Shown: in pieces, positions 3 through 42,221 of the stretch
Position numbering within the stretch: the first letter of the stretch is position 1
How the letters are laid out: each line of letters opens with the position of its first letter
From: Sulfuritalea sp.
Lineage (GTDB): Bacteria; Pseudomonadota; Gammaproteobacteria; Burkholderiales; Rhodocyclaceae
Direction of reading: 5' to 3'
Length of the DNA stretch: 47,093 bases
NCBI GenBank assembly: GCA_011526165.1
Contig: WYAY01000223.1
Coordinates: 1-47,093 of the forward strand
Made by a program: the position numbers and the translations under genes
Notes under the pieces: model-generated
What the model was told of the DNA's origin: nothing
The model's database searches: none
What the model saw: the letters and a program-made list of their open reading frames with translations, nothing else

Positions 3-2054
3 CTCGTCGTGTACTTCGCCCTGACGCGCTACGCGCTGATCGGCACCACCGCGGCCTTCGCGTGCTTCGTGCTGCTCGGCATCGGCGGCATGCTGCTGGC
101 GGCCGTGCAGGATGGCCGCTCGCTGGCCGTGCTCGGCCTGGTCGGCGCCTTCCTTGCGCCGATCCTCGCCTCCAGCGATACCGGCAACCACGTCGTGTTG
201 TTCTCCTATTTCACGCTGCTCAACCTGTTCATCTTCGGCCTGAGCTGGTTCCGTTCCTGGCGCTCGCTCAACGTGGCGGGCTTCCTGCTCACCTTCGCCA
301 TCGGCGTGAACTGGGGATTGAAGTTCTACCGGCCGGAATACTTCGACACCACCGAGCCCTTCCTCGTCGTGCTGTTCCTCATCTACAGCCTGATCCCGAT
401 CGTGTTCGCGCTGCGCGCGGCGCCGGGCACCGCGGCGGTCGACCGCATCGATGCCATGCTGATCTTCGGCACGCCGGTGGTGTGCGGCTTCCTGCAGGTG
501 CCGCTGGTCGAGCCCTTCGAATACGGCCTCGCCTGGTCGGCGGGCATCGCGGGGCTGTATTACCTTGCGCTCGCCTACATCGTCGCCAGCCGCAAGCGGG
601 AGGAACTGTCCGTGATCGCGGAAAGCCTGCGCTGGGTGGGGGCGGCGCTGCTCACGCTGGCCGTGCCTTTCGCCTTCGGCGCGCGCGCGACGGTGGCGCT
701 GTGGGCGCTGGAAGGCGCGGCGGCGGCATGGATGGGCGCCAGACGCGAGCGCACGCGCATCGCGCTGGCCGGCCTGGCGCTTCAAATCGTCGCCGGCGGC
801 CATTTCCTGCTGCACATCGACGAGCTCAAGCATGTGACCGCACTCGCCAACGATGTCTTCGTCGGCGGCATGCTGGTGGCCATTGCCGGATTGATCGGGA
901 GTTACGCGGCCAGCCGCCTGAATCCGAAGGCGTCGCCGCAGCTCCTGTCGGCCGCAATGCTGGTCTGGAGTGCGCTGTGGCTCTACGGCACAGGCCTCAA
1001 CGAGATCGATGTCTTCGTCGAGCGGCCCTGGCGCTTCGCCGCTTCGCTGGCGCTGGTCGCCCTGCCGCTGGCGGCGGCGGAATTCGCCGGCAGGCGGCTC
1101 GACTGGCTCGTGCTGCGGCGGGCCGCCGTCCTGCTGCCGCTGGTGCTGGCCGGCGGCGCCGTGGCGGTGCTGGACCTGAAGCGCCATCCCTTCGCCGACG
1201 CTGCCTGGATCAGCTGGCTGCTGGCCTACGCCGGCCACTTCATCGTACTGAGACGCCAGGAGGAGGAAGAGAATCTCTGGCGCGACGCGCGGCATGCGCT
1301 GGGCTTCTGCGTGCTCGCCGCACTCTCCGGCTGGGAAGCCAGCTGGCAACTGAAGGAACTGTTGCCGGAAATTCGCCTGGCACGCATGCTCGGCTGGGGC
1401 GTCGTGCCGGCCGCGCTGCTTGCCGCCGCGCATTACGCGGCACGTGCGCAAGCCTGGCCGCTAGTGACGAATCGGGGCGCTTACCTGAGCCTGGGCGCAG
1501 CCCCGGTGGCGCTGGCGCTGGGAGCGTGGACGCTGGTGCTCAACTTCGACTACTCCGGCGCAGCCGGCGGATGGCGGTATGTGCCCGTGTTCAGCCTGCT
1601 CGACCTCGGCCAGGCGCTGGTGCTGGCGGTGCTGTTCGCCTGGGTGCGCGAGCAGGCGCGCGCGAGGGGATTGTTGTACGCCGTGCTGGGGGGACTGACT
1701 TTTGCCTGGGTCAGCGCCGGCGCGGCGCGCACGGTACACCACTGGCTGGGCGTGCCCTTTGTCTGGGACAGGCTGATCGACTCGGTGGCGCTGCAGGCGA
1801 GCTGGTCGATCCTGTGGACGCTGCTCGCCCTCGGCCTGATGATCCAGGCCACCCGGCGCGGCCTGCGCACGTTGTGGTTCGCCGGCTTCGGACTGCTCGG
1901 CGTGGTCGGCTTGAAACTGATGCTGGTGGACACGGCCCACGTGAACACGCTGGGCCGCACGGTGTCGCTGCTTGGCGTGGCGCTGCTGGTGATCGCCGCA
2001 AGCTACTTCGCACCGACGCCGCCGAAATCTGCGACGTCTGGCGAGGAAGGCTAA
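3..2054 (+). CDS. DUF2339 family polytopic membrane protein, C-terminal part
   Basis: The frame is already open at the window edge, so the true start lies upstream; the GTG at position 9 is probably an internal valine. About 680 residues are visible, almost all in hydrophobic segments of 18-22 residues separated by short Arg-rich loops, which predicts a protein with many membrane spans. The stretch containing GARATVALWALEGAAAAW (near residue 225) is typical of DUF2339 proteins. Their function is not established. The stop codon TAA overlaps the stop of parB on the other strand, so the two genes converge with no room for a terminator. It contains one copy of the GACTGACTTT motif at 1693. Confidence 0.8.
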   Translation, partial: LVVYFALTRYALIGTTAAFACFVLLGIGGMLLAAVQDGRSLAVLGLVGAFLAPILASSDTGNHVVLFSYFTLLNLFIFGLSWFRSWRSLNVAGFLLTFAIGVNWGLKFYRPEYFDTTEPFLVVLFLIYSLIPIVFALRAAPGTAAVDRIDAMLIFGTPVVCGFLQVPLVEPFEYGLAWSAGIAGLYYLALAYIVASRKREELSVIAESLRWVGAALLTLAVPFAFGARATVALWALEGAAAAWMGARRERTRIALAGLALQIVAGGHFLLHIDELKHVTALANDVFVGGMLVAIAGLIGSYAASRLNPKASPQLLSAAMLVWSALWLYGTGLNEIDVFVERPWRFAASLALVALPLAAAEFAGRRLDWLVLRRAAVLLPLVLAGGAVAVLDLKRHPFADAAWISWLLAYAGHFIVLRRQEEEENLWRDARHALGFCVLAALSGWEASWQLKELLPEIRLARMLGWGVVPAALLAAAHYAARAQAWPLVTNRGAYLSLGAAPVALALGAWTLVLNFDYSGAAGGWRYVPVFSLLDLGQALVLAVLFAWVREQARARGLLYAVLGGLTFAWVSAGAARTVHHWLGVPFVWDRLIDSVALQASWSILWTLLALGLMIQATRRGLRTLWFAGFGLLGVVGLKLMLVDTAHVNTLGRTVSLLGVALLVIAASYFAPTPPKSATSGEEG
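1693..1702 (+). repeat. GACTGACTTT motif, copy 1
   Basis: An exact 10-mer in the DUF2339 gene, in context GGGACTGACTTTTGCC, read as G-L-T-F-A. Confidence 0.6.
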
Positions 2055-2896
2055 CGCAACTTCTCGAGCAGGCCGTCGAGCTGGTCGAGGCTGGAGAAGC
2101 CGATGGCGATCTGGCCGGCGCCCTTGGCGCTCACCTTGATCTTCACCTGCGCGCCGAGCGCATCGGCGAGTTCCTCTTCGAGGCGCGCCACATCGCGGTC
2201 TTCCCTTTTCGCCGCGGCGGCCTTCTGCTTGGGCGGATTGAGTTCGTGCTGCACCAGGCGCTCGGCCTCGCGCACGGAATAGCCCTTGGCGGAAATGCGG
2301 TGGGCAAGCTGCACCTGGCTGGCCTTGGCCAGCGGCAGCAGCGCGCGGGCGTGGCCCATGTCGATCTGGCCGGCCATGAGCAGGTCCTGCACCGGCTTGG
2401 CGAGATGCAGCAGGCGCAGCAGGTTGCTCGCCGCCGGACGCGAGCGGCCGACTGCATCGGCCGCCAACTGATGCGTCATGCCGAATTCGTCGATGAGGCG
2501 CTGGATGCCCATCGCCTCTTCCAGCGGGTTGAGGTTCTCGCGCTGGATGTTCTCGATGAGCGACATGGCGAGCGCCGCGTCGTCGGGGATGTCGCGCACC
2601 AGTACCGGCACTTCGTGCAGGCCGGCGAGTTGCGAAGCGCGCCAGCGCCGTTCGCCGGCGATGATCTCGTAGCGGCCGCCGTCGACCGGACGCACCAGGA
2701 TCGGCTGCATGACGCCTTGCGCCTTGATGGAAGCGGCCAGCTCGTTCAAGGACTCCTGGTCCATGTGCGTGCGCGGCTGGTACTTGCCGGGCTGCAGGTA
2801 GTCGACGCGCAGGGTATCCTGGCGCGTCGGTTCGCTGCTGTTGCCGGCCAGGAGGGCGTCGAGCCCGCGGCCGAGGCCTTTCGGTTTGGTAGCCAT
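2051..2896 (-). CDS. parB: Chromosome-partitioning protein ParB (Spo0J family)
   Basis: This 281-residue protein is the centromere-binding CTPase that loads at parS and spreads. The N-terminal KGLGRGLDALL motif is the usual ParA-contact segment. The ParB/Srx domain carries GERRWR (81-86) and ENIQRENLNP (115-124), which bind CTP in this family. A helix-turn-helix around residues 140-162 reads parS. The C-terminal part is the dimerisation region. The start is the ATG at 2896, preceded by GGGAG at good spacing; the frame stays open further upstream only as an overlap with parA. It lies 14 bases after parA. Two parS-type sites occur in this window, at 6278 and 12107. Confidence 0.97.
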   Translation of the reverse strand: MATKPKGLGRGLDALLAGNSSEPTRQDTLRVDYLQPGKYQPRTHMDQESLNELAASIKAQGVMQPILVRPVDGGRYEIIAGERRWRASQLAGLHEVPVLVRDIPDDAALAMSLIENIQRENLNPLEEAMGIQRLIDEFGMTHQLAADAVGRSRPAASNLLRLLHLAKPVQDLLMAGQIDMGHARALLPLAKASQVQLAHRISAKGYSVREAERLVQHELNPPKQKAAAAKREDRDVARLEEELADALGAQVKIKVSAKGAGQIAIGFSSLDQLDGLLEKLR

Positions 2897-2910
2897 GTAT
2901 TTTGTCTCCC

Positions 2911-3681
2911 TTAAAACGTCTTGACGCGTTCGATCATCTCGGCGGCGAAGGCGAGGTAGGCCTGCGCGCCCTTGGCGGCGCGGTCGAACACCACGCCGGG
3001 CATACCGTAGCTGGGCGCCTCGGCCAGGCGCACGTTGCGCGGCACGATGGACTTGAAGACCTTGTCGCCGAAATGCTGCTCCAGTTGCGCACTGACCTGG
3101 TTGGACAGGGTGCTGCGCGTATCGAACATGACGCGCAGCAGGCCGATGATCTTGAGGTCCGGGTTGAGGTTGGCGTGCACCTTCTTGATGGTGTTCACCA
3201 GGTCGGAGAGGCCTTCCAGCGCGTAGTACTCGCACTGCATCGGGATGATGACGCCGTTGGCGGCGCACAAGCCGTTCAGCGTCAGCATGCTGAGGGAGGG
3301 AGGGCAGTCGATGAGGACGAAGTCGTAATCCTGATCGTGCATCGCGAGGGCATGCTTCAGGCGCGTCTCGCGGTTGTCGAGGTCGACCATCTCGACTTCG
3401 GCGCCGGCGAGGTCACGGTTGGCCGGCAGGGTGTCGTACTTGCCGGTTTCGGAAGCCTGGCGCGCCTCGGCCAGCGAGGCGAGGCCGAGCAGCACGTGGT
3501 AGACCGAATTCTTCAGCGTGCGCTTGTCCACGCCGCTGCCCATGGTGGCGTTGCCCTGCGGGTCGAGGTCGACCAGCAGCACGCGCTGGCCCTGCGCGGC
3601 GAGCGCGGCGGCGAGGTTCACCGTGGTGGTGGTCTTGCCGACCCCACCCTTCTGGTTGGCGACTGCGAATATGTACGACAT
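2911..3681 (-). CDS. parA: Chromosome-partitioning ATPase ParA (Soj)
   Basis: This 256-residue ATPase works with ParB to segregate newly replicated origins. The N-terminus has the deviant Walker A motif KGGVGKTT (residues 11-18). It is followed by VDLDPQGN and by the DCPPSL segment of the switch region, all typical of chromosomal ParA. There is no N-terminal DNA-binding extension, as in Soj-type rather than plasmid P1-type ParA. The ATG is preceded by GGGAG located inside the end of rsmG. The gap to rsmG is 4 bases and to parB 14 bases, so mnmG-rsmG-parA-parB reads as one operon. Confidence 0.97.
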   Translation of the reverse strand: MSYIFAVANQKGGVGKTTTTVNLAAALAAQGQRVLLVDLDPQGNATMGSGVDKRTLKNSVYHVLLGLASLAEARQASETGKYDTLPANRDLAGAEVEMVDLDNRETRLKHALAMHDQDYDFVLIDCPPSLSMLTLNGLCAANGVIIPMQCEYYALEGLSDLVNTIKKVHANLNPDLKIIGLLRVMFDTRSTLSNQVSAQLEQHFGDKVFKSIVPRNVRLAEAPSYGMPGVVFDRAAKGAQAYLAFAAEMIERVKTF

Positions 3682-3685
3682 GTTG

Positions 3686-4315
3686 TTATGGCTCCCTTTT
3701 CACGCGCACCAGGTGGCGCGCGCCCTCCACGCCCGGCACTTGCAATGGCGTCACCTCCGCCACGCGCCAGCCGGCCGGCAGCTGGGCGATTTCCTCGTAG
3801 GGGTGCACCCCCTTCATGGCCAGCAGCGCGCCGCCTTCGGCGAGCAGATGGCCGGACAGCCTGACGAACTCGGCCAGGTCGGAGAAGGCGCGCGAGATCA
3901 CCGCGTCGAACTTCTCCGCCGGCTGCCAAATCTCGACGCGCGTGCAGTACACGCTGACGTTGGCGAGGCCCAACTCGATCTTCGTCTGCTGCTGGAAGGC
4001 CGATTTCTTCTGGCTCGTTTCCACCAGCGCCACCTGCAGGTCCGGCCGCACGATGGCGAGCGGGATGCCGGGCAGGCCGCCGCCGCTGCCGATGTCGGCC
4101 AGACGCTTCGCCGCACCCAGCTGCGGCAGCACCGCCAGCGAATCCAGCAGGTGGTGGCTGACCACCTGTTCCTCGTCGCGCAACGCGGTGAGGTTGTACA
4201 CCTTGTTCCATTTGCCCAGCAGCGCGGCGAAGGCGAGCAGCTTATCCTGCGCGGCGGGCGGCAAATCCAGACCCAGCGCGGCGAGCCCGCGCGCCAGTTG
4301 TTCTTCGGATTTCAT
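3686..4315 (-). CDS. rsmG: 16S rRNA m7G527 methyltransferase RsmG (GidB)
   Basis: This 209-residue protein is an S-adenosylmethionine-dependent enzyme that methylates G527 of 16S rRNA. The SAM-binding loop [15 protein letters not shown] and the preceding [11 protein letters not shown] and HHLLDSL segments are characteristic of RsmG. The ATG start overlaps the TGA of mnmG in an ATGA junction, which suggests translational coupling. The stop is 4 bases before the parA start codon. The order mnmG-rsmG-parA-parB is the conserved origin-proximal arrangement in many bacteria. Confidence 0.97.
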
Positions 4316-6213
4316 GCGCGCTTGCGGCCCTCGCGCACCGGGGAACCGCGCCGCTTGAGGTGCACCAACAGCAGCGAGATCGCCGCCGGTGTGATGCCCT
4401 GTATCCGCGAGGCCTGGCCAAGCGTTTCCGGCTTGTGCTGGTTGAGCTTCTGCTGCACTTCGATCGAAAGCCCGCGCACCGTGCGGTAGTCGAGGTCGTC
4501 CGGCAGCGGTGTGTCCTCCTGCTCGCGGCTCTTGGCGATCTCCTCGGCCTGGCGGTCGATGTAGCCCTGGTACTTGGCCTGGATCTCGAGCTGCTCGACG
4601 GCCTGCAAATCGCATATCGGTTCGCCGGTACCGGGCAGGGTCATCAGGCTGGCATAGCTCACGTCGGGCCGGCGCAGCAGCTCGGCCAGGCTGTATTCGT
4701 GCTCGAGCGGCTTGCCGAGGACGCGTTCGGCGTTCGCTGCGTCGACGAACTTGGGATTCACCCAGGTCGTCTTCAGCCGCTCCTGCTCGCGCGCGATGGC
4801 GTCGCGCTTGCGGCTGAAGGCATCCCAGCGCGCGTCGTCGACGATGCCGAGGCGGCGGCCGGCCTCGGTCAGGCGCAGGTCGGCGTTGTCCTCGCGCAGG
4901 CTGAGGCGGTATTCGGCGCGGCTGGTGAACATGCGGTAGGGCTCGGAGACGCCGCGGGTGATGAGGTCGTCGGCGAGCACGCCGAGGTAGGCTTCGTCGC
5001 GACGCGGACACCACGGCGCCTCGCCCTTGGCGCGCAGGGCGGCATTGAGTCCGGCGAGCAGGCCCTGGGCGGCGGCTTCCTCGTAGCCGGTGGTGCCGTT
5101 GATCTGGCCGGCGAAGAAGAGGTTGCGGATGGCCTTGGTTTCCAGCGAGGAATACAGGCCGCGCGGGTCGAAGTAATCGTACTCGATGGCGTAGCCGGGC
5201 CGCAGGATGTGGGCGTGCTCCAGGCCGGGGATGGAGTGCACCAGTTCGAGCTGCACGTCGAAGGGCAGGCTGGTGGAGATGCCGTTCGGGTAGATCTCGT
5301 GCGTGGTCAGGCCTTCCGGCTCGAGGAAGATCTGGTGGCTTGTCTTGTCGGCGAAGCGGTGGATCTTGTCCTCGATGGAGGGGCAGTAGCGAGGACCCAC
5401 TCCTTCGATAACGCCCGTAAACATGGGCGAACGATCCAGCCCGCCGCGGATGATGTCGTGCGTGCGCTGGGTGGTATGCGTGATCCAGCAGGGCAGTTGC
5501 TGCGGATGCTGCGCAGCATTTCCGAGGAAGGAAAACACCGGCGCCGGGTCGTCACCCGGCTGCACGGTCATGATCGAGAAATCGATGCTGCGGCCGTCGA
5601 GGCGCGGCGGCGTGCCGGTCTTCAGGCGGCCGGCCGGCAGCTTCAGCTCGCGCAGGCGCGCGGCCAGGCTGACGGCGGGGGGATCGCCCATGCGGCCGGC
5701 CTGGTAGTGATCGAGGCCGACGTGGATCAGGCCGGCGAGGAAGGTGCCGGCGGTCAGCACCACGGTTTCGGCCTCGAAGCGCAGGCCGAGCTGGGTGACG
5801 GTGCCGGTGACGCGGTCGCCGGAAACGGTGAGGTCGTCGACGGCCGCCTGGAACAGCGTCAGGTTGGGCTGGTTCTCCAGGCGGCGGCGGATCGCCGCCT
5901 TGTACAGCACGCGATCGGCCTGGGCGCGCGTGGCGCGCACCGCCGGACCCTTGCTGGAATTGAGGATGCGGAACTGGATGCCGGCCTCGTCGGTGGCCGC
6001 CGCCATGGCGCCGCCGAGGGCGTCGACTTCCTTCACCAGGTGGCCCTTGCCGATGCCGCCGATGGAGGGATTGCAGGACATCGCACCCAACGTCTCGAGG
6101 TTGTGCGTCAGCAGCAGCGTGCGGCAGCCCGCGCGCGCCGCGGCGAGCGCCGCCTCGGTGCCGGCATGGCCGCCACCGATAATGATTACGTCATAGCGCG
6201 TGGGGAACAGCAT
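4312..6213 (-). CDS. mnmG: tRNA uridine-5-carboxymethylaminomethyl enzyme MnmG (GidA)
   Basis: This FAD-binding protein works with MnmE to modify U34 in the wobble position of several tRNAs. The N-terminal dinucleotide fold reads [21 protein letters not shown] up to the usual length. CNPSIGG and the C-terminal [14 protein letters not shown] segment are also typical. The chosen ATG at 6213 gives 633 residues, close to the E. coli protein; an in-frame TTG at 6243 would add ten residues with no family support. Unlike the common layout, it is separated from mnmE by about 6 kb of transporter genes. A terminator-parS palindrome lies just upstream. Confidence 0.96.
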
Positions 6214-6324: not shown

Positions 6325-7062
6325 TTACTGCTTCTTGCCGCCCAATCCGAGGTAGGTTTCGACAACGCGCGGATCGTCGGCCAGCTGGCGGCTTTCGCCC
6401 TCCAGCGCGACGCTGCCGGTCTCCAGCACATAACCGTAGTCGGCGATCTGCAGCGCGGCGCGGGCGTTCTGTTCGACCAGCAGGATGGCGACGCCGGTTT
6501 TCTTCAGGTCGGCGATGATGTGGAAGATTTCGCGCACGATAAGCGGGGCGAGGCCGAGGCTCGGCTCGTCGAGCATGAGCAGCTTCGGCTTGGCCATCAG
6601 GGCGCGGCCCACCGCCAGCATCTGCCGCTCGCCGCCGGAGAGCGTGCCCGCCAATTGGGCACGCCGCTCCTTGAGGCGCGGGAAGGTCGCAAAGACCTGG
6701 TCCATGGTCTTGCCCTCGTCGCGGTCGCCGTGGCGATAGCGCTGGAAGGCGCCGAGCAGGAGGTTGTCCTCCACGCTCATCTCGCCGAACAGCTCGCGCT
6801 TCTCCGGCACCAGCGTCATGCCCATGGCGACGAGATGCTCGACCTCGATGTCCCGCTGGACTTCGCCCTGGAACTCGATCTCGCCCTTCGAGGGCAGCAG
6901 GCCCATGATGGCGGAAAGCATGGTGGTCTTGCCGGCGCCGTTGGGGCCGATCACGGTGACGATCTGGCCGGCGGCCACCTTCAGGTTGATGTGGTGCAGC
7001 GCTTCTACTTTGCCGTAGGAGACGCACAACTCGCGGATTTCCAGGATGGGGGTCGTCATCAT
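6325..7062 (-). CDS. livF: Branched-chain amino acid type ABC transporter ATPase LivF
   Basis: This 245-residue protein is one of two nucleotide-binding subunits of a HAAT-family importer. It has Walker A GPNGAGKTT (39-47), the ABC signature LSGGERQML and Walker B LLMLDEPSLGLAP. The segment VPEKRELFGEMSVEDNL is typical of LivF. The start overlaps the livG stop as ATGATG: the first ATG shares bases with TGA, and the second ATG three bases on is an equally plausible start. It is the last gene of the liv operon and is followed by the parS terminator. The substrate cannot be told from the ATPase. Confidence 0.92.
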   Translation of the reverse strand: MMTTPILEIRELCVSYGKVEALHHINLKVAAGQIVTVIGPNGAGKTTMLSAIMGLLPSKGEIEFQGEVQRDIEVEHLVAMGMTLVPEKRELFGEMSVEDNLLLGAFQRYRHGDRDEGKTMDQVFATFPRLKERRAQLAGTLSGGERQMLAVGRALMAKPKLLMLDEPSLGLAPLIVREIFHIIADLKKTGVAILLVEQNARAALQIADYGYVLETGSVALEGESRQLADDPRVVETYLGLGGKKQ

Positions 7063-8819
7063 TCAACCCCTCCGAGATAGGCTTCCAGCACCACCGGATC
7101 CTTCTGCACTTCCTCCGGCAGGCCTTCGGAAATCTTTTCGCCGAACTCCATGACGACGACGCGGTCGGCCAGGCCCATGACGAAATCCATGTCGTGCTCC
7201 ACCAGCAGGATGCCCATGCCCTCGCTACGCAGCTTGCGCAGCAGTTCGGCCAGCGCCTGCTTCTCCAGATAGCGTAGCCCCGCTGCCGGCTCGTCAAGGA
7301 GCAGCAGACAGGGATCGGCGGCCAAGGCGCGGGCAATCTCCAGGATGCGCTGCTGCCCGAGCGGCAGGCTACCGGCTTCGTCGAACAGATGCTCACCCAG
7401 GCCGACGCGTTCGAGCTGGCGCTTCGCTTCGGCGAGCAGGCGCGCTTCCTCGGCGCGCTCCAGGTGAAGGGCGGCGGGAAGAACGCCCTTGCCGCCCCTG
7501 AGGTGCGCGCCGATGGCGACGTTCTCCAGCACGCTCATGGTGGGCAGCAGGCGCACGTGCTGGAAGGTGCGGCCCATGCCGCGCCGCGCGATGTCGCGCG
7601 AAGCCAGTGTCTCGATGCGCTCGCCCAGAAAGGCGATCTCGCCGGAAGTCACCGGGTCGACGCCGGAAATGCAGTTGAACATGGTGCTCTTGCCGGCGCC
7701 GTTGGGGCCGATCAGCGCCATCACCTCGCCGGCCTTCACGGTCAGGTTCATGTCGTTGTTGGCAACGAGGCCGCCGAACTGCTTGCGGGCGTTTTTCACC
7801 TCCAGCAGCACCGCGCCGACGACCGGCATCTCGCGCCGCGGCAGGGGCGCGGCGTCGGCGACGGCACGCTGTCCGGCCTTGACCGGCACCAGGCGCGCCA
7901 GCCACGGCCACAGGCCGTCGCGTGCGCGCTGCAGCACCAGGATGAGCAGGATGCCGAAGAAGATCACCTCGAAGTTGCCGCTCTGGCCGAACACCTTGGG
8001 CAGCAGATCCTGCAGCCATTGCTTGAGCACGGTGATCACGCCGGCGCCGACCAGCGCGCCCCAGACATGGGCCGCTCCGCCCACCACCGCCATGAACAGA
8101 TACTCGATGCCGATGTGCAGGCCGAACGGCGTCGGGTTCACGAAGCGCTGCAGGTGGGCATAGAGCCAGCCCGAGACGCTGGCGTAGAGGGCGGCGATGA
8201 GAAAGATGACGATCTTGGTGCGGGCGGTATCGACGCCCATGGCCTCGGCCATCAGGCCGCCGCCCTTCAGCGCACGGATGGCGCGCCCCTCGCGCGAGTC
8301 GAGCAGGTTCTGCGTGGCGAAAACTGCGCCAAGCAGCGCCAGCCAGATGAGGTAGTAGAAGCTCCTGCCGGTGTCCAGTTTCAAGCCGAAGAACTCGAGG
8401 ACGGGAATGCCGGTGAGACCGGTATGGCCGCCTAGGAACTCCAGATTGCCGAAGAGGAAATACAGGCTGATGCCCCAGGCGATGGTGCCCAGCGGCAGAT
8501 AGTGGCCGGACAGCCTCAGCGTCAGAAAACCCAGTATGAGCGCCACGACGGCGGTGACGGCCAGGCCGATCAGCAAAGTCAGCCAGGGCGACACGGCGAA
8601 GGCCGTGGTGAGATACCCCGTGGCGTAGGCGCCCAAGCCGACGAAGGCGGCCTGGCCGAAGGAGGTGAGGCCGCCCACCCCGGTGAGCAGCACCAGGCCC
8701 ACCGCCACGATCGAATACATGCCGATGTAGTTGAGCAGGGTGACGTAGAACTCGGGCAGCACTACGGGGCCAAGCGCCAGCACGGCGATGAAGACGATCA
8801 GCGGAAGGCGCTGCATCAT
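7059..8819 (-). CDS. livM-livG: Fused LivM permease / LivG ATPase
   Basis: A single 586-residue frame encodes two subunits that are separate in E. coli. Residues 1 to about 310 are a LivM-type permease with roughly eight to ten membrane segments and motifs such as [17 protein letters not shown] short linker (about 311-335) leads into a LivG ATPase with Walker [10 protein letters not shown] (371-379), a signature reading [15 protein letters not shown], and Walker [12 protein letters not shown]. No stop codon or candidate break separates the halves. The signature has LPLGQ in place of LSGGQ, which is frequent in LivG. The start overlaps the livH stop as ATGATG. Such fusions are known in other HAAT operons. 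Confidence 0.92.
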
Positions 8820-21875: not shown

Positions 21876-24428
21876 TTATTTTTTCGCGGTTTTCTTCTTC
21901 GCGGGCGCTTTTGCCGCCGTCTTGGCGCGACTGACTTTTGCCGGCGCCGCCGCGGGCTTTTCGGCGCTCTTCTTGGCGGCGGCCTTGGGCGCGCGCGGCT
22001 CGAACTCGAAGCCGACCTTGCCGTCGCTGCCGCTGACCAGATAGGCGGAGAACCTGCGGCGCGTCTTGTTCGAGATGAAGCCTTTGAGCAGGTCGGTGCG
22101 CCCTTCCTTGAGCAGCTTGCCCATCTGCGCACGCTCCACCGGCTGCTGCAGGATGATCTTGCCCGAGCGGAAATCGCAGGTCTTGTCGGCCCCGACGGCC
22201 TTCTCGCAGACGTAGGCCATGCCGTGCTCGTAGACCTTCTTGCCGCACTTCGGGCATTTGCCCAACGGTTCCTGGCCGCTGAAATCGATGGCTTCACCGT
22301 CGGCCTCGCCGGCGCTGCCCTGGCCGAAGTCGAACTCCGGCAGGTGCTCGGTGTTGAGGCGGATCATGGCGGCGAAGGGCCGCCCCATCTTGCTGCGGAA
22401 GCCCTGCAGGGGGCCGACAACGCCCCTGGAAAGAAGCTCATCGACTTCTTCCGGCTCATACTGGCGGCCGGCGACGACCTTCCATAGCGCGTAGCCGCAC
22501 TTCTTGCACTGGAACTTCTTGTAGTTCTCCTGGATCACGCCGCCGCACTTCGGGCAGGGCGTGGTGAGGGTGCTGAAAACTTCCTCGGGGATCTCGCCGT
22601 GCTTGATGCGGTCGACCATTTCTCGTGTCTGCTCGACGATGTGGTCCATGAACTCGTCGCGCTCCAGCTCGCCGTGTTCCATCTGCTTCAGCTTGTATTC
22701 CCAGTGGCCGGTGAGTTCCGGCGAGTGCAGTTCGTCGATGCCGAGCGTGGACAAGGCCACCATCAGCGAGAAGGCCTTGGCCGTCGGCTGCAGCTCGCGG
22801 CCGTTGCGGTGCACGTACTCTTCTTGGATGAGGCCCTCGATGGTGGCGGCGCGCGTCGCCGGCGTGCCGAGGCCGCGCGCCGACATGGCTTCGCGCAGTT
22901 CCTCCTCCTCGATCAGCTTGCCGGCGCCTTCCATGGCGGTGAGCAGCGTCGCTTCGGTGAAGCGCGCCGGCGGCTTGGTCTGGTTCGCCTTGACCTCGAC
23001 GTCGTTGGCCCAGACGCGCTCCTTCGGCTTGATGGGCACCAGGCTCGGCGTCTCGTCTTCCCCCTGCGCCTCCTTGCCATAGACGGCAAGCCAGCCCGCG
23101 GCGACCAGCACCTTGCCTTCCGACTTGAAGGCTTCGCCCTCGACGCGCGTGATGCGCGTCGTCACGTTGTATTCCGCCGCCGGGAAGAAGATGGCGAGGA
23201 ATCGCCTGGTGACGAGGTCGTAGAGTTTCTGCTCGGCTTCGGAGAGATGCTTGGGCTCGGCCCCGGTCGGGATGATGGCGAAGTGGTCGGAGACCTTGGC
23301 GTTGTTGAAAATGCGCTTGTTCGGATGCGCCCAGCCGCCCTTCAGGATCTGCCCGGCGAAGGGAGCGTACGGCGTTCCCGAAAAGCTCTTCAGCGTCTCC
23401 TTCACCGTGGCGATGTAGTCTTCCGGCAGGTAGCGCGAATCGGTTCGCGGATAGGTCAGCGCCTTGTGCTTCTCGTAGAGCGCCTGCGCCAGGGCGAGCG
23501 TCGTCTTGGCGGAGAAGCCGAAACGGCCGTTGGCCTCGCGCTGCAGGGAAGTGAGGTCGTAGAGCAGGGGCGACAACTGGGTGGTCGGCTTGCTTTCCTC
23601 CTCCACCGTGCCGTGCTTGCCGAGGCATTTCTTGCGGATGGCCTCGGCCTTCCTGATGTCCCACAGGCGCTCTGCCTTGGCGTGCTCGTCGTCCGTCTTG
23701 GCGAATTTCTCGTCGAACCAGCGGCCGCGGTAGGCGCCGGCCGTGGCGGCAAATTCTCCCTCCACTTCCCAGTAGTCGCGCGGCCGGTGCGCGCGGATGC
23801 GCTCCTCGCGCTCGACCAGGATGGCCAGCGTCGGCGTCTGCACGCGGCCCACCGGCGTCTTGTGGAAGCCGCCCTCCTGCGAGTTGAATGCGGTCATCGC
23901 GCGCGTGCCGTTGATGCCGATCAGCCAATCGGCCTCGGAGCGGCAGCGCGCGGCATCCGCCAGCGGCCGCATCTCCTTGTCCGTGCGCAGGTGGGCGAAG
24001 CCCTCGCGGATGGCGCTTTGCGTCATCGATTGCAGCCAGAGGCGGCGGACCGGCTTCTCGGTTCCGGCATGCTGCACCAGATAGCGGAAGATGAGCTCGC
24101 CTTCGCGGCCCGCGTCGCAGGCGTTGATGAGGCCGCCGACGTCCTTGCGCTTCATCAGCCGCGTCAACAGCTTGAGGCGCTCGCCGGTCTTGTCGATCGG
24201 ATTGAGCGTGAAATGCGGCGGGACCACCGGCAGATGGGCGAAGGACCATTTGCCGCGCTTGACCTCGTATTCCTCCGGCACGGCCAGCTCGAGCAGGTGG
24301 CCGATGGCCGACGACAGCACGTAGTCGTCGCTCTCGAAATATTCGCCCTGCTTGGCGAAGCCGCCCAGGGCCCGCGCGATGTCCTGGGCGACGGAGGGTT
24401 TCTCGGCAATGATCAGTTGTTTACTCAT
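21876..24428 (-). CDS. topB: DNA topoisomerase III
   Basis: This 850-residue type IA topoisomerase decatenates single-stranded DNA. The Toprim part has NACDAGREGELIF (102-114) and the catalytic tyrosine is Y326 in LTYPRTDSRYLPED. Two zinc-ribbon-like segments follow: CPKCGGVIQENYKKFQCKKC and CPKCGKKVYEHGMAYVC. The protein ends in an Ala/Lys-rich tail of about 45 residues that probably binds DNA without sequence preference. The tail encodes one GACTGACTTT motif, read as K-V-S. A 9-bp hairpin lies just upstream of the start. It is the last gene of the LysM-dprA-smg-topB operon. Confidence 0.95.
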   Translation of the reverse strand: MSKQLIIAEKPSVAQDIARALGGFAKQGEYFESDDYVLSSAIGHLLELAVPEEYEVKRGKWSFAHLPVVPPHFTLNPIDKTGERLKLLTRLMKRKDVGGLINACDAGREGELIFRYLVQHAGTEKPVRRLWLQSMTQSAIREGFAHLRTDKEMRPLADAARCRSEADWLIGINGTRAMTAFNSQEGGFHKTPVGRVQTPTLAILVEREERIRAHRPRDYWEVEGEFAATAGAYRGRWFDEKFAKTDDEHAKAERLWDIRKAEAIRKKCLGKHGTVEEESKPTTQLSPLLYDLTSLQREANGRFGFSAKTTLALAQALYEKHKALTYPRTDSRYLPEDYIATVKETLKSFSGTPYAPFAGQILKGGWAHPNKRIFNNAKVSDHFAIIPTGAEPKHLSEAEQKLYDLVTRRFLAIFFPAAEYNVTTRITRVEGEAFKSEGKVLVAAGWLAVYGKEAQGEDETPSLVPIKPKERVWANDVEVKANQTKPPARFTEATLLTAMEGAGKLIEEEELREAMSARGLGTPATRAATIEGLIQEEYVHRNGRELQPTAKAFSLMVALSTLGIDELHSPELTGHWEYKLKQMEHGELERDEFMDHIVEQTREMVDRIKHGEIPEEVFSTLTTPCPKCGGVIQENYKKFQCKKCGYALWKVVAGRQYEPEEVDELLSRGVVGPLQGFRSKMGRPFAAMIRLNTEHLPEFDFGQGSAGEADGEAIDFSGQEPLGKCPKCGKKVYEHGMAYVCEKAVGADKTCDFRSGKIILQQPVERAQMGKLLKEGRTDLLKGFISNKTRRRFSAYLVSGSDGKVGFEFEPRAPKAAAKKSAEKPAAAPAKVSRAKTAAKAPAKKKTAKK
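21929..21938 (+). repeat. GACTGACTTT motif, copy 2
   Basis: An exact 10-mer in topB, in context GCGACTGACTTTTGCC; the gene is on the other strand and reads it K-V-S-R. Confidence 0.6.
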
Positions 24429-25004: not shown

Positions 25005-26093
25005 TCATGGGCCGATGCGTTGGAACCGTCCTCCCGGCAGGCTGGCGATCCTGCCGTCCAGCTCCAGTTGCAACAGAATGGCGTATAGCCTCTCGGCCGT
25101 CAAGCCGGAACGCGCCGCCAGCGTGTCGACATCGCAAGAATCGTAAGCAAGACAATCGAGTAGCTTCGAAGCCTGGGCATCGCTCGGCTGCGCGGCGGCG
25201 GCTTTTTCCGGCGGCGCACCGCTCATGCCGAGTTCATCGAGAATGTCGCGCGCGTCATCCACCAGCTTGGCGCCCTGCTTGATCAGCTTGTGGCAGCCCT
25301 TCGAGAGGGGCGAGTGGATCGAGCCGGGAATGGCGAAGACGTCGCGGCCCTGCTCGCCGGCCTGGCGGGCGGTGATGAGCGAGCCGCTGCGTTCCGCCGC
25401 CTCCACCACCAGGCAGCCGCGCGCAAGGCCGGAAATGATGCGGTTGCGGCGCGGGAAATTCTCCCGCAGCGCCGGTGTGCCGAGCGGGAACTCGCTGACG
25501 ATGGCGCCGCGTTCGGCGATCTCGCGCGCCAGCGCCTGGTTGCGCGGCGGGTAGACGCGATCGATGCCGGTGCCGATCACGGCGATGGTGGATGCCTTGC
25601 CGCGCAGGCCGCCGCGGTGGGCCGCTGCATCGATGCCCAGCGCCAGGCCGCTGACGATGGCGAGCCCGGCGTCGGCGAGGGCCGCGGCGAAGGCCTCGGC
25701 GTTCGCTTCGCCTTGTGGCGTGGCATTGCGCGAACCGACGATGGCGATGGCCGGCGCATTCAGCAGTTGCGTGCGCCCCATCGCGTACAGCACGGTGGGC
25801 GGGTCCGGGGTGTCGAGCAGGCGCTGCGGATAGGCCGCATCGGCCAGGGTGAGGATGGCATTGCCGGGCGCAGCGGCCCAGGCGAGCGCCGCCTCGATTT
25901 CGTCCTGCGCGTCGTAGGAAAGCAACTGCTCCGCCAGCTTGAGCGGCATGGCGCTCGCCAGGGAGGCGGGACTGGCGGAAAAAATCCGCTCGGGAAGGCC
26001 GAATGCGGCGAGCAGCCTGCGTTGCGTCTCGCCGCCGATGCCTGGCGCAAGCGTCAGGCGCAACCAGGCGGCGAGTTCGCTGTTGCCGGGCAC
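25005..26093 (-). CDS. dprA: DNA-processing protein DprA
   Basis: This 362-residue protein protects incoming single-stranded DNA and loads RecA during natural transformation. The Rossmann-like core has AIVGSRNATPQGE, IVSGLALGIDAAAHRGGL, IGTGIDRVYPPRN and then SEFPLGTPALRENFPRRNRI, all diagnostic. A C-terminal winged-helix (about residues 300-362) is present. The start is GTG at 26093, directly after the TAA of the LysM gene. Its presence fits, but does not prove, natural competence. Confidence 0.95.
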   Translation of the reverse strand: MPGNSELAAWLRLTLAPGIGGETQRRLLAAFGLPERIFSASPASLASAMPLKLAEQLLSYDAQDEIEAALAWAAAPGNAILTLADAAYPQRLLDTPDPPTVLYAMGRTQLLNAPAIAIVGSRNATPQGEANAEAFAAALADAGLAIVSGLALGIDAAAHRGGLRGKASTIAVIGTGIDRVYPPRNQALAREIAERGAIVSEFPLGTPALRENFPRRNRIISGLARGCLVVEAAERSGSLITARQAGEQGRDVFAIPGSIHSPLSKGCHKLIKQGAKLVDDARDILDELGMSGAPPEKAAAAQPSDAQASKLLDCLAYDSCDVDTLAARSGLTAERLYAILLQLELDGRIASLPGGRFQRIGP

Positions 26094-29858: not shown

Positions 29859-31036
29859 TACAGGGTCTCCGGTTGTTGCAGCATTTCGCGCAGCTCGGCG
29901 AGGAACAGCCCGCCGCGATGGCCGTCCGAGACGCGGTGGTCGGCGGCGAGGCTCGCCGTCACCACCGGCGTCACCGTCAGCGTGCCGTTTTCCACCCAGG
30001 GCTGCTCGACGATGCGGCCGAAGCCGACCAGCGCCACCTGTGGCGGGTAGATGACGCCGTACACCGCCGCCACGCCCTGCTCGCCGAGGTTCGTCACGGT
30101 GAGGGTCGGGTCGGACATCTCCGAGCTGCGCAGCGAGCCGGCGCGGGCGCGCTTCACCAGGTCGGTGAGGTCGAGCATCAGCTGCTCGAGCGATTTGTTG
30201 CCGACATCGTGGATGGCCGGCGCGATGAGGCCGCCCTGCCTGAGCGAGATTGCCACCCCGATGTGCGCCGCCGACGCGGGCTGGAAGGCGCCGTCGCGGA
30301 AGAAGCCGTTCATCTCGGGGAATTTTCTCAGCGCCAGCGCCACCGCCTTCAGCTGCAGGACGGCCATGAGCAGGCGCGCCGTGATCGGCCGGCTCTCGTT
30401 GGCCTGCGCCAGCCAGTCCGTCGCGCGGCGCATCGGCACCGGCTCGGAGAGATAGTAGTGCGGGATCTCGCGCTTCGAGCGGCTCATTGCCGCGGCGATG
30501 GCCTTGCGCATTTCCGCCGCCTTGTCGGGCACAGGCACCGCCCTGGCGGGACTGACTTTGGTCGCAGCCGCCTGCTCGACGTCCGCCAGCGTGACGGCGC
30601 CCTCCGGGCCGGTGCCGGCGACCGAGTCGATGTCGACGCCGAGTTCCTCCGCATGCTTGCGCGCCGCCGGCGAGATGCGGCGGCGGCCGGCGATCGCGGC
30701 AGCGGGGCGCGCCGCGGCTGCAGGCGCGGGGGACGGCGCTGCAGCCGCCTTGGGCGCTGGCGCCGCACGCGGCGTGCGCTTCGCCGTCTCCGGCGTTTCG
30801 CCCGCCTCGAGCAGGGTCGCCATCACCGTGCCGACGGGGATCGTCTCGTCCGGCTGGACCAGCAGCTCGAAGACAGTGCCCTCGCTCCAGATTTCGACGT
30901 CGACTGCCGCCTTCGAGGTGTCGACGATGGCCACCACCTGGCCCTTCTTCACCGTGTCGCCGGGACTGACTTTCCATTCGAGGAGCTTGCCCTCGTCCAT
31001 GTCGGCGCCGAGGGACGGCAGTTTGAATTCGATCAT
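29858..31036 (-). CDS. Dihydrolipoamide acyltransferase (E2) of a 2-oxoacid/acetoin dehydrogenase
   Basis: This 392-residue protein has one lipoyl domain (about 1-78, with K42 in DTSKAAVDV), an Ala/Pro linker, an E3/E1-binding domain ([16 protein letters not shown]), a second linker and the catalytic domain. The catalytic motif is DHRVSDG, near residue 370. ATG at 31036 overlaps the E1 beta stop as ATGA. Two GACTGACTTT motifs lie in it, at 30550 and 30964, each read as K-V-S-P. The acyl group is uncertain: pyruvate, acetoin or a branched-chain 2-oxoacid are all possible. Confidence 0.9.
30550..30559 (+). repeat. GACTGACTTT motif, copy 3
   Basis: An exact 10-mer in the E2 gene, in context GGGACTGACTTTGG; read on the other strand as K-V-S-P. 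Confidence 0.6.
30964..30973 (+). repeat. GACTGACTTT motif, copy 4
   Basis: A second exact copy in the E2 gene, in context CGGGACTGACTTTCC, in the lipoyl-domain coding part. Confidence 0.6.
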
Positions 31037-33068: not shown

Positions 33069-33140
33069 CCGTCATTCCCGCGAAAGCGGGAATCCATCGA
33101 AGTGTAACTGCCTGGATTCCCGCTTTCGCGGGAATGACGG
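33069..33140. repeat. 28-bp perfect inverted repeat pair between acs-like and E1 alpha genes
   Basis: Arms at 33069-33096 and 33113-33140 are exact reverse complements across a 16-base spacer. Each arm also holds an inner hairpin, TTCCCGC-GAAA-GCGGGAA. The element fills almost the whole gap upstream of the E1 alpha start. It is unrelated in sequence to the C-rich palindromes nearby and resembles paired REP units. Confidence 0.9.
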
Positions 33141-33147: not shown

Positions 33148-34911
<1,764 letters not shown>

Positions 34912-34978
34912 CGCGCCCTCCCTCGCGGATGATGGAAGGATTCTGCTGCGTGCGGCCGCCGCGCGACTTTGACTTAAA

Positions 34979-36391
34979 TCAGGTGACGCGGAAGTTCTTG
35001 AACTGCCAGGGGTCGTCGCGGTCGAGGTCTTCCTCGAAGAACCGCCCGCGGTCGGCGAGCGGCGTCCACTCGCCGTAGGCGCCGGCCAGCTCGCCGAGAT
35101 AGGGGCGGATAAAGGCCAGCACCTCGGCATGGTCCATCTCTTCCGGTTCGATGATGCCGCGGTCGGGGTTCTTCAGCGCCCAGATCACGCCGGCCGCCAG
35201 CGGCGCGGTGACCTGCAGGCTGGTGGCGCTGTTGTGCGGGCAGAGCGCGCGCGCCTGCCCGATCGACAGGCGCGAACCGTACCAGTAAACGCCCTTTTCG
35301 TGGCCCATCAGCAGCACGCCCAGCTCGTCGATGCCGGAGACGATTTCCTCCTTCACCAGACGTATGCGCGGCTGCATCCGCCAGTTGCGGCCGGCCAGTT
35401 CATGCACCGAGAGCACCGTGTCGTCCGAGGGGTGGTAGGCATAATGCACCGTCGGCCGGTATTCCGGGCTGTCGCCCTCGCCGAGCGTCAGGTAGTCGGC
35501 CAGCGAGATGGCTTCGCTGTGGGTGATCAGGAAGCCGTGGATCGGCCCGGCCAGCGGCGTCCAGGTGCGCACCTGCGTCGAGGCGCCCGGCCGCATCAGC
35601 ATGATCGCCGCCCGGCTGCCGGCAGTGTGGCGGCAGCCGTCCGGCGGGAAATGCTTCTCGTGGCTGCCCCAGCCCAGCTCCGCCGGCTGGCAGCCCTCGC
35701 CGACGAAACCGTCGATCGACCAGGTGTTGACGAATTCGTCCGGCGCCTTGCGCGGCTCGGCCACCTGCGTGTCGCGCTCGGCGATGTGGATGGCGCGGAT
35801 GTTGAGCGACTGCGCCAGCCGCGCCCAGCCGAGGCGGTCGCGGGGGGCATCGACCGCCCGGCCGCAGTCGCGCGCGATGTTCAGCAGCGCTTCCTTGACG
35901 AGGTGCGAGACCATGCCGGGATTGGCGCCGTGGGTGAGGATGGTGGTCGGCATGCCGGGGCGCTTGAGCGCCAGCGCCGCCTCGCGCAGGGCGTAGTTCG
36001 AGCGCGCCTCGGGTGGCACCGAGATGTCGGTGTAGCCGCCGGCCCAGGGCTCGATGCAGGTGTCGATGTAGAGGACGCCGCGTTCCTGGCAGAGGGAGAT
36101 CAGGGCGACGCTGGAGACGTCGGTGGAGCAATTGACGAGGAAATCGCCGCGGGAGAGGCGCGGCTCGAGCACGCTGCGGTAATTCGCGCGGGTGAGCGGG
36201 ATGACGTTGAACTCGACGCCATATTCTTCGGCCACCTGGCGGCCGTTTTCGTCGCCGGTGAAGATGACGATCTGCGCCGGGCGCAGGTCGATATGGCGCA
36301 ACAGCAGGGGCAGGGTGCCCTGACCGATGGATCCGAAGCCCACCATGACGATGCGGCCGGAAAAGGCCAGCGCTTTGCGGTTTTCCCCCAA
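34979..36391 (-). CDS. hss: Homospermidine synthase
   Basis: This 470-residue NAD-dependent enzyme joins two putrescine units into homospermidine. The N-terminal Rossmann fold has [49 protein letters not shown] and [18 protein letters not shown] are family segments shared with the saccharopine-dehydrogenase-like group. Its length equals the known enzymes. The start is TTG at 36391, placed after GGGGAG; no ATG is suitable. It is the promoter-proximal gene of the minus-strand operon that ends at 29613. Confidence 0.92.
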
Positions 36392-36992: not shown

Positions 36993-38279
36993 ATGCCCCT
37001 CGAAGACACATCGCTGGCCTTTGCCCTGCACGGCGCCGCCCTGGCCGTGGCCGAGGTGATGGCCGGCCGCAACCTGAACGAGGCGCTGGCCGAACTGTGG
37101 CGCCGATGGCCCAACCTGCCGCCCGGCCAGCGCGGCGCGGTGCAGGACCTGGCCTATGGCGCCTTGCGTCGCTTCGGCCGCGACGATTTCCACCTGGCGC
37201 GGCTGATGCAGAAGCCGCCGGCCGCGCCGGTGCGCGCGCTGCTGCTGGTGGCGCTCGCACGCCTGGCGGTGCGGCCGGAAGAAGCCCACACCGTCGTCGA
37301 CCAGGCGGTCGAGGCGGCCGGCGCGCTCCAACGCGGCAAGTTCAAGGCGCTCGTCAATGGCGTGCTGCGCAATTTCCTGCGCCGGCGCGCCGAGCTGGAG
37401 GCCGCCGCCGGGGAAGACGAGGCGGCGCGCTGGCAGCACCCGCGCTGGTGGATCGCGCGGCTGCGCCGCGAACATCCCGGCGAGTGGCAGTCCATCCTTG
37501 AGGCCGGCAACGGCCGCCCGCCGATGACGCTGCGGGTGAACCGGCGCCGTGTCGCGGAGACTGACTTTCTGGCGCGGCTGCTCGCCGCGGATATCGAGGC
37601 CCGCCCGCTCGAGGGCGGTGCGATCCGGCTGGCGCGCCCGCTGCCGGTGGAGCGCCTGTCCGGCTTCGCCGAGGGGCTGTGCTCGGTGCAGGACGCCGGC
37701 GCGCAGCGCGCCGCTGCGCTGCTCGACGTGCACGACGGCCAGCGCGTGCTCGACGCCTGCGCCGCGCCGGGCGGCAAGACCGCCCATATCCTGGAGCGGG
37801 CGGCGGTGGAGCTGCTGGCGCTCGACGCCGATGCCGGCCGCGCCGTGCGCGTTTCGGAGAACCTGCTGCGCCTGGGGCTGACGGCGCGCGTGGCCGTGGC
37901 GGATTGCCGCGAGACCGCCGCCTGGTGGGACGGCCGCGCCTTCGACCGCATCCTCGCCGACGTGCCCTGCTCGGCCTCCGGCGTGGTGCGGCGGCATCCC
38001 GACATCAAGTGGCTGCGCCGGGCAAGCGACATCGCCCGCTTTGCCCGCGCCCAGGCGGAGATTCTCGACGCGCTGTGGCGGGTGCTCGCGCCCGGTGGTA
38101 AATTGCTGTACGCGACGTGCTCCCTGTTTGCCGAGGAGAACGAGCGCCAGGTCGCGGCCTTCGCCGCGCGACAAGAAGACTGCATGCGGCTGCCGGTCGC
38201 GGGCGCGCCCGGGCTGCAGCTGCTGCCCAACGAAGAACATGACGGCTTTTTTTACGCCCTTCTTGAAAAGCAGGCCTAG
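36993..38279 (+). CDS. rsmB: 16S rRNA m5C967 methyltransferase RsmB
   Basis: This 428-residue enzyme has an N-terminal NusB-like RNA-binding domain (to about residue 140) and a SAM-dependent methyltransferase domain. The SAM loop is DACAAPGGKT. Both catalytic cysteines of the m5C family are present: C326 in VPCSASG and C376 in ATCSLF. The length matches E. coli RsmB (429). Its 3' end overlaps the next gene by 41 bases. GACTGACTTT occurs at 37559, in register E-T-D-F. Confidence 0.96.
   Translation: MPLEDTSLAFALHGAALAVAEVMAGRNLNEALAELWRRWPNLPPGQRGAVQDLAYGALRRFGRDDFHLARLMQKPPAAPVRALLLVALARLAVRPEEAHTVVDQAVEAAGALQRGKFKALVNGVLRNFLRRRAELEAAAGEDEAARWQHPRWWIARLRREHPGEWQSILEAGNGRPPMTLRVNRRRVAETDFLARLLAADIEARPLEGGAIRLARPLPVERLSGFAEGLCSVQDAGAQRAAALLDVHDGQRVLDACAAPGGKTAHILERAAVELLALDADAGRAVRVSENLLRLGLTARVAVADCRETAAWWDGRAFDRILADVPCSASGVVRRHPDIKWLRRASDIARFARAQAEILDALWRVLAPGGKLLYATCSLFAEENERQVAAFAARQEDCMRLPVAGAPGLQLLPNEEHDGFFYALLEKQA
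37559..37568 (+). repeat. GACTGACTTT motif, copy 6
   Basis: An exact 10-mer in rsmB, read in a different codon register (E-T-D-F). Confidence 0.6.
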
Positions 38280-40973: not shown

Positions 40974-42221
40974 ATGGCGAAAATTCTTGTAGTTGACGAC
41001 GAAGTCGGCATCCGCGAACTCCTCTCGGAGATCCTCCGCGACGAGGGCCACGACGTGCAGCTGGCCGAGCACGCCGCCGCGGCGCGCACGGCGAGGAACG
41101 CCGCGCGCCCCGACCTGGTGCTGCTCGACATCTGGATGCCGGACACCGACGGCATCACGCTGCTCAAGGAATGGTCGGCCGCCGGCCAGCTCAACATGCC
41201 GGTGGTGATGATGTCCGGCCACGGCACCATCGACACGGCAGTGGAGGCGACGCGCATCGGCGCGCAGGACTTCCTGGAGAAGCCGATCGCCCTGCAGAAA
41301 CTGCTGGCGTCGGTCAAGCGCGCCCTGCAAAAGTCAGTCGCCCCGGCACGGCGCAGCGAGCTCACCCTGACGGCCTTCGCGCGCAGCGGGCCGCTGCGCG
41401 ACCTGAAGAAGCGCCTCGAGCAGATCGCCGCCCGGAGCCGCGTGCTGATGCTGAAGACCGGACCGGGCAGCCTGGCCGAACTGGTCGCGCGCAGCCTGCA
41501 GGCGCCGGGCAAGGCCTGGCTCGACCTTGCCGGCCACGGCCAGCCGCTGGCGATCGAGGCGCTGGAGCAGGCTTCCGGCGGCATGCTCTTCGCCGCCGAA
41601 CTGGCGGCGCTTTCCCGTCTGCAGCAGAAGAACCTGGCCTTCGCCCTCGACCGGCTGGAGAAATTTGACCTGCGCCTGGTCGCCGCCAGCGCGCAGAGCA
41701 TCGCCGAACTGGCGGCGGCGGGCTTCGACGAGGCGGTGCTGCGCCGCCTGAGCGAGACCAGCCTCGGCGCGCCGGGCCTGGCGGAACTGAAGGACGAGGT
41801 GCCGGAGATCGCCGCGCAGATCCTTACTCACCTCGTCGAGGCCGGCGAGGTGCCGCTGCGGCGCCTGTCTACCGCCGCGCTGAATGTCCTGCGCAACCAA
41901 GCCTGGGCGGGCGGCTATGCCGAGCTGCGCAACGCCGTGCGCTCGCTGGCGATGGCTGCCCTCGAGGAGGAAATCGCCGCCGAGGAGGCCTTGCGCCTGC
42001 TGGCGCCGCAGCCCTCCGCGGCGGCGCAGGCGCTGCCGCTCGATCTGCCGCTGCGCGAGGCGCGCGAGGCCTTCGAGCGGATCTACTTCGAGCATCACTT
42101 GCAGCTCGAAGCCGGCAACATGACGCGGCTCGCCGAGAAGACCGGCCTGGAGCGCACCCATCTCTATCGCAAGCTCAAGGCGCTGGGCGTCCCGCTCGGC
42201 CGCAAGGGGGAAGAACAATGA
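40974..42221 (+). CDS. ntrX: NtrX-like response regulator with degenerate AAA+ domain
   Basis: This 415-residue protein has an intact receiver (residues 1-120, phospho-site D52 in LLDIWMPD, plus the K in EKPIAL) and a C-terminal Fis-type helix-turn-helix (MTRLAEKTGLERTHLYRKLKAL). The middle part aligns in position with a sigma-54 AAA+ domain, but it lacks a Walker A P-loop (LKTGPGSLAE at the place), Walker B acidic pair and the GAFTGA sigma-54 contact. It should bind DNA but not drive sigma-54 open-complex formation. GACTGACTTT lies on the minus strand at 41330. It begins 15 bases after ntrY. Confidence 0.88.
   Translation: MAKILVVDDEVGIRELLSEILRDEGHDVQLAEHAAAARTARNAARPDLVLLDIWMPDTDGITLLKEWSAAGQLNMPVVMMSGHGTIDTAVEATRIGAQDFLEKPIALQKLLASVKRALQKSVAPARRSELTLTAFARSGPLRDLKKRLEQIAARSRVLMLKTGPGSLAELVARSLQAPGKAWLDLAGHGQPLAIEALEQASGGMLFAAELAALSRLQQKNLAFALDRLEKFDLRLVAASAQSIAELAAAGFDEAVLRRLSETSLGAPGLAELKDEVPEIAAQILTHLVEAGEVPLRRLSTAALNVLRNQAWAGGYAELRNAVRSLAMAALEEEIAAEEALRLLAPQPSAAAQALPLDLPLREAREAFERIYFEHHLQLEAGNMTRLAEKTGLERTHLYRKLKALGVPLGRKGEEQ
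41330..41339 (-). repeat. GACTGACTTT motif, copy 7
   Basis: An exact 10-mer on the minus strand within the ntrX-like gene, in context GCGACTGACTTTTGCA; the gene reads its complement as K-S-V. Confidence 0.6.

Follow-up and report, generated by a model that had tools for sequence, protein, structure and literature searches.

The stretch of DNA analysed here (the window, 47,093 bp in length) is contig C208 of G000, a genome of the Rhodocyclaceae (2.97 Mb in 255 contigs, 85% complete) whose closest named relative, judged by dnaA, is 'Rhodocyclaceae bacterium SB9' (93%). Scattered through its genes is a 10-mer, GACTGACTTT, of which a sequence-only reading of the window had listed seven exact copies. 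All seven were found at the positions claimed, and the over-representation of the word is borne out by the observation that none of 100 dinucleotide shuffles yielded a single copy. The two additional near-matches of the form CTGACTTT (8575 on the minus strand and 33992 on the plus strand) are also real, and both score as members of a longer motif. As claimed, the copies lie in coding sequence, with all nine strong sites inside open reading frames (ORFs) recognised by Pfam, and several codon registers are used; the ORF at 7059-9566 was assigned by hand to the motif site at 8584, which automated register assignment had left unplaced. The proposed consensus, however, was too short, as the conserved stretch reaches 14 bases further upstream, to CGCCGT. 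When the resulting 25-bp motif was used the window contained nine strong sites, at a score of at least 22, while the reversed control contained none (Table 1).

Table 1. Copies of the 25-bp motif and other features of the window, with clusters of dialect-B copies in other genomes
Feature	Position	Strand	Context
25-bp copy	1679..1703	+	10-mer at 1693; in DUF2339 membrane-protein gene, ORF 3-2054 (+)
25-bp copy	8574..8598	-	Variant core GGCTGACTTT; in branched-chain amino acid ABC permease/ATPase frame, ORF 7059-9566 (-)
25-bp copy	21915..21939	+	Antisense in DNA topoisomerase gene 21876-24428 (-)
25-bp copy	30536..30560	+	Antisense in 2-oxoacid dehydrogenase acyltransferase (E2) gene 29858-31174 (-)
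25-bp copy	30950..30974	+	Same E2 gene, 29858-31174 (-)
25-bp copy	33670..33694	+	Antisense in AMP-binding (acyl-CoA synthetase type) gene 33148-35130 (-)
25-bp copy, weaker	33976..34000	+	AMP-binding gene 33148-35130 (-)
25-bp copy	37545..37569	+	Within RsmB-type 16S rRNA methyltransferase gene 36993-38279 (+)
25-bp copy	41329..41353	-	Antisense in sigma-54 response-regulator gene 40974-42221 (+)
dnaA	16108..17487	+	Pfam Bac_DnaA; likely replication origin, used in polarity test
dprA (DNA-processing protein)	25005..26093	-	PF02481 (E 1.7e-77) and PF17782; competence-associated but widespread
Dialect-B clusters, otherwise motif-poor genomes	G120:C1:1461265-1502266; G428:C3:26361-30944; G590:C24:160-7177; G094:C104:14059-19610		

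The motif was derived by iterating a weight matrix over 800 kb of G002, a closed member of the same genus (one 3.15-Mb contig), and the conservation of its flanks was read from 37 sites of G000 and from 55 that lie within the opening 400 kb of G002. The full element is 25 bp long, CGCCGTSYYGCSGSGACTGACTTTT, and carries about 31 bits; GACTGACTTT forms its right part, so that CGCCGT is followed by a tolerant SYYGCSGS, then by the 10-mer and then mostly by T, with sharp edges on both sides. In the 800 kb of G002 the matrix identified 168 sites, against three in the reversed control, at a score of at least 10, and 154 against none at 20 or above, with the exact 10-mer lying within 99 of the 168. 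G000 itself contains 412 copies of GACTGACTTT, 211 and 201 on the two strands, and only four of the reversed 10-mer. Among 15 further members of the genus, 12 have at least 125 copies (G013, G012 and G008 have 44, 19 and four, respectively), and 20 genomes from other Rhodocyclaceae genera have between zero and nine. Neither of the contrary outcomes named beforehand, a count near expectation or a restriction of the copies to the region of the window, was observed. The repeated word is the core of a genome-wide tag, confirming an observation that was real and is larger than first noted.

The tag occurs in at least three dialects, A (that of the window's own genus), B and C. Dialect B was first reached when the own-genus matrix matched related sites in other named Rhodocyclaceae; its consensus, CGCCGTCYCGCCAGCRCCGACTTTT, carries about 38 bits, and 26 sites were found in 120 kb of G023, with a further 15 B-like sites in 60 kb of G084. 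Dialect C starts with TGCCGT; 100 kb of G033 yielded 18 such sites at a score of 12 and the control none. The core varies even inside the own genus, where it reads GACCGACTTT in G007 and SJ453 and GGCTGACTTT in G011. The range of the tag was surveyed with the general pattern YGCCGTNYYGN6CYGACTTT, one mismatch being allowed, in 395 genomes of the family from 68 genera, those with at least 50 copies being termed rich. Rich genomes number 73 and belong to nine genera (g1, 14 of 16 members; g2, 21 of 22; g9, 1 of 1; g19, 18 of 19; g47, 1 of 2; g62, 1 of 1; g70, 4 of 4; g88, 9 of 9; g90, 4 of 6), with no more than five matches in the reversed controls. In the same genera seven members are poorer, with 0 (G279), 2 (G258), 3 (G121), 7 (G214), 24 (G008), 28 (G012) and 36 (G275) copies; the 315 genomes of the remaining genera have at most 19. 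Of 37 genomes reached via named loci eight are rich, with 132 to 485 copies (SB9, SJ453, Sulfuritalea sp. (R2F), LaPlata bin-306, Tobar2m-G30, UBA5602, Sulfuritalea sp. (Bin_4_3_4) and Rugosibacter sp.), those of Sulfuritalea and Rugosibacter being metagenome-assembled. Pmx449 follows with 24, and seven or fewer were counted in each of the remaining 28, which include Thauera, Aromatoleum, Zoogloea, Azonexus, Accumulibacter, Dechloromonas, Tepidiphilus, Nitrosospira, Aquitalea and Chromobacterium with between zero and four. Beyond the family, the exact pattern CGCCGTN10CYGACTTT occurs at most four times in 386 other-family genomes from a draw of 399 across the order, except for G475 with 14, and at most twice in 273 other genomes of a class-wide draw.

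De novo word searches in 177 kb of G008 and 200 kb of G012 revealed no comparable motif. G008, whose counts equal those of the metagenome-assembled genome Pmx449 (L033), contains hardly any exact copies, while weak matches number 21 against four at a score of 6, an excess that could represent decayed copies or merely conserved protein sequence; G008 is perhaps a lineage that has lost the tag system. The genome also holds other repeated words, such as CCCAGCCTAC. Perfect B copies, some of them clustered, were observed in a few otherwise nearly motif-free genomes, and these clusters possibly came in with DNA from motif-rich donors, or represent contamination.

We propose that the motif is probably a DNA uptake sequence and, as such, the third uptake-sequence system, a 2025 paper (PMC12616744) giving these sequences as known from two families only, the Neisseriaceae (DNA uptake sequence, DUS) and the Pasteurellaceae (uptake signal sequence, USS). 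On this view a DNA receptor at the cell surface, part of the type IV pilus/competence machinery, would bind the tag, which is dense in the organism's own genome, and naturally competent cells would thereby favour the uptake of DNA of their own kind. Biased uptake followed by recombination (molecular drive) would have multiplied the motif; we infer both the bias and the drive. No earlier report linking the Rhodocyclaceae to uptake sequences appeared in the titles or abstract starts among the matches listed, the literature searched being largely open-access. The sequence-only reading had offered three options, without claiming any: an uptake signal, a replication-oriented motif and a methylase site. 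The first is the best supported, because the motif has a high copy number and dialects, shows no polarity, turns over by substitution, is scarce in low-GC DNA and is carried by phages. The other two, like a mobile element, are disfavoured. It can be argued on general grounds that restriction and methylase sites do not look like this, a motif of 25 bp and 31 bits whose middle tolerates change. The orientation bias at which the window hinted also fails, the strands being random in the sampled parts of both G002 and G001. Contig C1 of G002 starts at dnaA and, in a test that assumes a terminus half way round and whose strand sums cover the sampled parts, there were 67 plus- and 60 minus-strand sites on the assumed right half (P 0.59) and 20 and 21, respectively, on the left (P 1.0), while contiguous 400-kb stretches contained 49 and 46 in G002 and 45 and 42 in G001. 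Uptake sequences are described as lacking a general orientation bias in genomes (PMC2346458).

Phage contigs also carry the tag. Pattern B was found in at least 120 stretches of IMG/VR and pattern A in seven, and 86 IMG/VR loci, totalling 807 kb, contain 142 B-type sites at a score of 14 against none in the control, about 56 of these being in excess of one per locus. The 87 distinct B copies on phage contigs, in most of which the inner letters were fixed by the search pattern, have sharp edges and use all registers. Eight contigs were selected for several sites or low GC, and six of them (L329, L335, L344, L355, L375 and L383) display PHROGs matches to terminase, tail, polymerase, primase or exonuclease proteins. 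On L329 five dialect-B copies lie at positions 883-2239, upstream of phage tail genes, the first four being 316 bp apart. Searches of plasmids and isolated phages returned no match spanning 80% of the 33-base query. Phages of the Pasteurellaceae are reported to accumulate USS (PMC6776037).

In low-GC DNA sites are scarce. Five-kb windows with a GC content below 0.62, which is only a proxy for recently acquired DNA, contain no sites in G002 (13 windows; 14.9 expected) and two in G001 (9.4 expected). The longest stretch devoid of sites (27 kb, 59% GC) carries polysaccharide-type genes and a transposase-type gene, three of the ten proteins scanned having matched Pfam. Recently acquired neisserial genes are described as devoid of DUS (PMC2397512).

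It could be argued that a motif distributed genome-wide, with B and A copies on phage contigs, is an intracellular self-marker, Chi-like or nuclease-sparing, which protects the cell's own DNA and which phages carry to escape degradation. This explanation is unlikely. Chi and FtsK-orienting polar sequences (KOPS) resemble the motif in being over-represented chromosomal words, but they are short and polar, whereas the Rhodocyclaceae motif is long and shows no strand polarity; furthermore, the low-GC scarcity and the modest density on phage contigs (142 sites in 807 kb, 86 loci) suit slow accumulation better than protection. A long, specific and genome-wide motif could also be bound by a protein that organises or segregates chromosomes, in the way of MatP, Noc, SlmA and FtsK. 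This is very unlikely, however, as the G002 sites are present in most sampled parts without clear concentration at the origin or terminus, their spacing in the 400-kb stretches of G002 and G001 is compatible with random placement, polarity is absent, and the motif is not palindromic and occurs on phage contigs as well.

A mobile mini-element, or an inserted repeat copied by transposition, would fit the sharp edges, the clusters in a few motif-poor genomes and the 316-bp steps of the copies on L329. The manner in which the dialect-A sites examined differ between relatives renders this highly improbable. Of the 95 dialect-A sites in 400 kb of G002, 48 had both flanks aligned to G001. At 44 of these the alignment is ungapped, 41 still scoring at least 12 and three not, and at the remaining four the length changes are -1, -1, +12 and +1425, with no clean 25-bp insertion among the 48. 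In a wider survey of 83 pairwise comparisons the 10-mer was kept in 37, differed without a gap in 35 and was gapped in 11. In addition, a middle as tolerant as that of dialect A is what a binding site typically shows, and not a copied element. Identity at the anchored sites is 594/616 over the 14 core positions, 380/440 over the tolerant middle (positions 6-15) and 2206/2503 (0.88) over the flanks; the motif core is thus better conserved at orthologous places than its surroundings. Among the window copies, the 25-mer at 33670..33694 is identical in G001 and G002, and the site at 30536..30560, when aligned with genus members, is kept in some, substituted in some and gapped in diverged ones. One lost G002/G001 site differs at ten positions simultaneously, which, in this single case, is the pattern that additional gain and loss of sites by recombination would leave.

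A regulatory or terminator signal for transcription or RNA has in its favour a mild intergenic excess and one inverted pair. The 168 G002 sites comprise 106 that are coding, 11 at gene edges and 51 that are intergenic, against 76%, 3% and 21% of random positions (about 35 intergenic sites expected), although the coding figures rest on gene calls with a coding fraction of 0.79, which undercount genes. Such a role is hardly credible when called genes enclose 106 of the 168 sites, in either orientation, the sole register left empty is the one in which TGA falls in frame, and no Rfam family was detected in the window at the gathering threshold. The inverted pair, in which two motif copies overlap at about 101846-101888 of G002 C1, could fold into a hairpin with T's at its end, as DUS terminators do. 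Finally, chance, composition or protein conservation, for which it might be said that one register holds 54 of the 106 coding sites in G002, is ruled out by the counts, given the motif-free shuffles, reversed controls near zero and the use of five of the six registers on both strands.

Considered as an uptake sequence, the motif lies outside DUS in its CTG core, length and family, and outside USS in its core, yet would work like both. DUS are described as present in very many copies, from 943 to 5918 in the genomes named, with high conservation and with genome-specific dialects that share positions (PMC3630211). The motif is similar to these ComP-read sequences in its abundance, its conservation and the shared positions of its dialects. 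Its left part, GCCGTC, also resembles AT-DUS (ATGCCGTCTGAA). In contrast, there are about 400-800 copies per genome here, the family is another one, and dialect A alone has CTG on the strand of the motif, where B and C read CAG (CTG on the opposite strand). The USS motif is said to extend up to 32 nt, around cores AAGTGCGGT and ACAAGCGGT with the inner core GCGG (PMC12616744). The Rhodocyclaceae motif is alike in its extended length, T-rich side, more than one dialect and presence on phage contigs. Its core, however, is unrelated, neither USS core with its inner GCGG being seen in consensus A and B when compared by eye, and both of its ends are strongly conserved around a middle that is tolerant in A and not in B.

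It should be emphasized that several observations weigh against an uptake sequence. DUS are 9-13 nt long (10-13), compared with 25 bp here. Inverted pairs are reported to be frequent for DUS and USS (PMC12616744), whereas pairs less than 200 bp apart number one among 95 G002 sites and none among 87 G001 sites. Part of the low-GC scarcity may be composition, because site density rises with GC throughout, and the density in G002 is 0.247 per kb where aligned to the G001 stretch against 0.227 elsewhere, where 'elsewhere' includes core DNA located elsewhere in G001. The gaps in the wider survey, although often in diverged alignments, also count here. The competence machinery is plausible because ComEC was detected in 50 of 51 genomes and dprA lies in the window, but it is equally common without the motif, ComEC being present also in the motif-free genomes tested. 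Of 35 genomes, 29 scored above the Pfam cut-off for the ComP_DUS pilin family PF16732, some of them motif-free, and no match was obtained in the motif-rich G000, G006, G007 and G014. Similarly, the GspH/FimT pilin family PF12019 was matched at E 0.01 in 30 of 35, again including motif-free genomes, and not in the motif-rich G002, G006 and G014. Most motif-rich genomes that lack a pilin match are incomplete drafts; G002 is closed, and a FimT-like frame is visible by eye in it despite the missing GspH match. Within the dialect-A genus the minor-pilin cluster is of two types with different neighbourhoods, one in G002 (L214) and G005 (L215) and the other in G001 (L221), and because of this difference no receptor is seen to accompany the motif.

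As a means of separating motif-bearing from motif-free genomes, ComEC, ComP_DUS pilins and GspH/FimT all failed, as did a prepilin inventory of 14 genomes (among the matches listed), and pilin charge and isoelectric point revealed no evident difference across 17 loci. A sequence search of the PDB with one ComP-like pilin retrieved pilins mainly via the common N-terminal part. ComP-like and FimT-like minor pilins beside pilV-like genes are candidate receptors.

The hexamer GCCGTC, common to the motif and to neisserial DUS, offers a lead as to the origin of the tag. The uptake specificities of the Rhodocyclaceae and the Neisseriaceae might represent one ancestral betaproteobacterial trait, in which GCCGTC derives from a single signal read by a ComP-like pilin; the Rhodocyclaceae would have extended this to 25 bp, most of their genera would have lost it, and alterations of its middle would have produced A, B and C. 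We regard this scenario as doubtful.

If the motif is indeed a third case, it would provide an independent test of how tags evolve, whether through self-preference, receptor bias or drive, in a setting where the motif is longer, nine genera use several dialects and some close relatives nearly lack it. There would be a new receptor-motif pair to find, metagenome phages could be linked to hosts by dialect, and natural competence would be predicted in groups such as Sulfuritalea and Rugosibacter.

At 32010-32100 and 33065-33140 the window also contains two elements resembling repetitive extragenic palindromes (REP-like); these inverted repeats (CCCTCTCCC...GGGAGAGGG and GTCATTCCCGCGAAAGCGGGAATCC) are found at many places in genus members.

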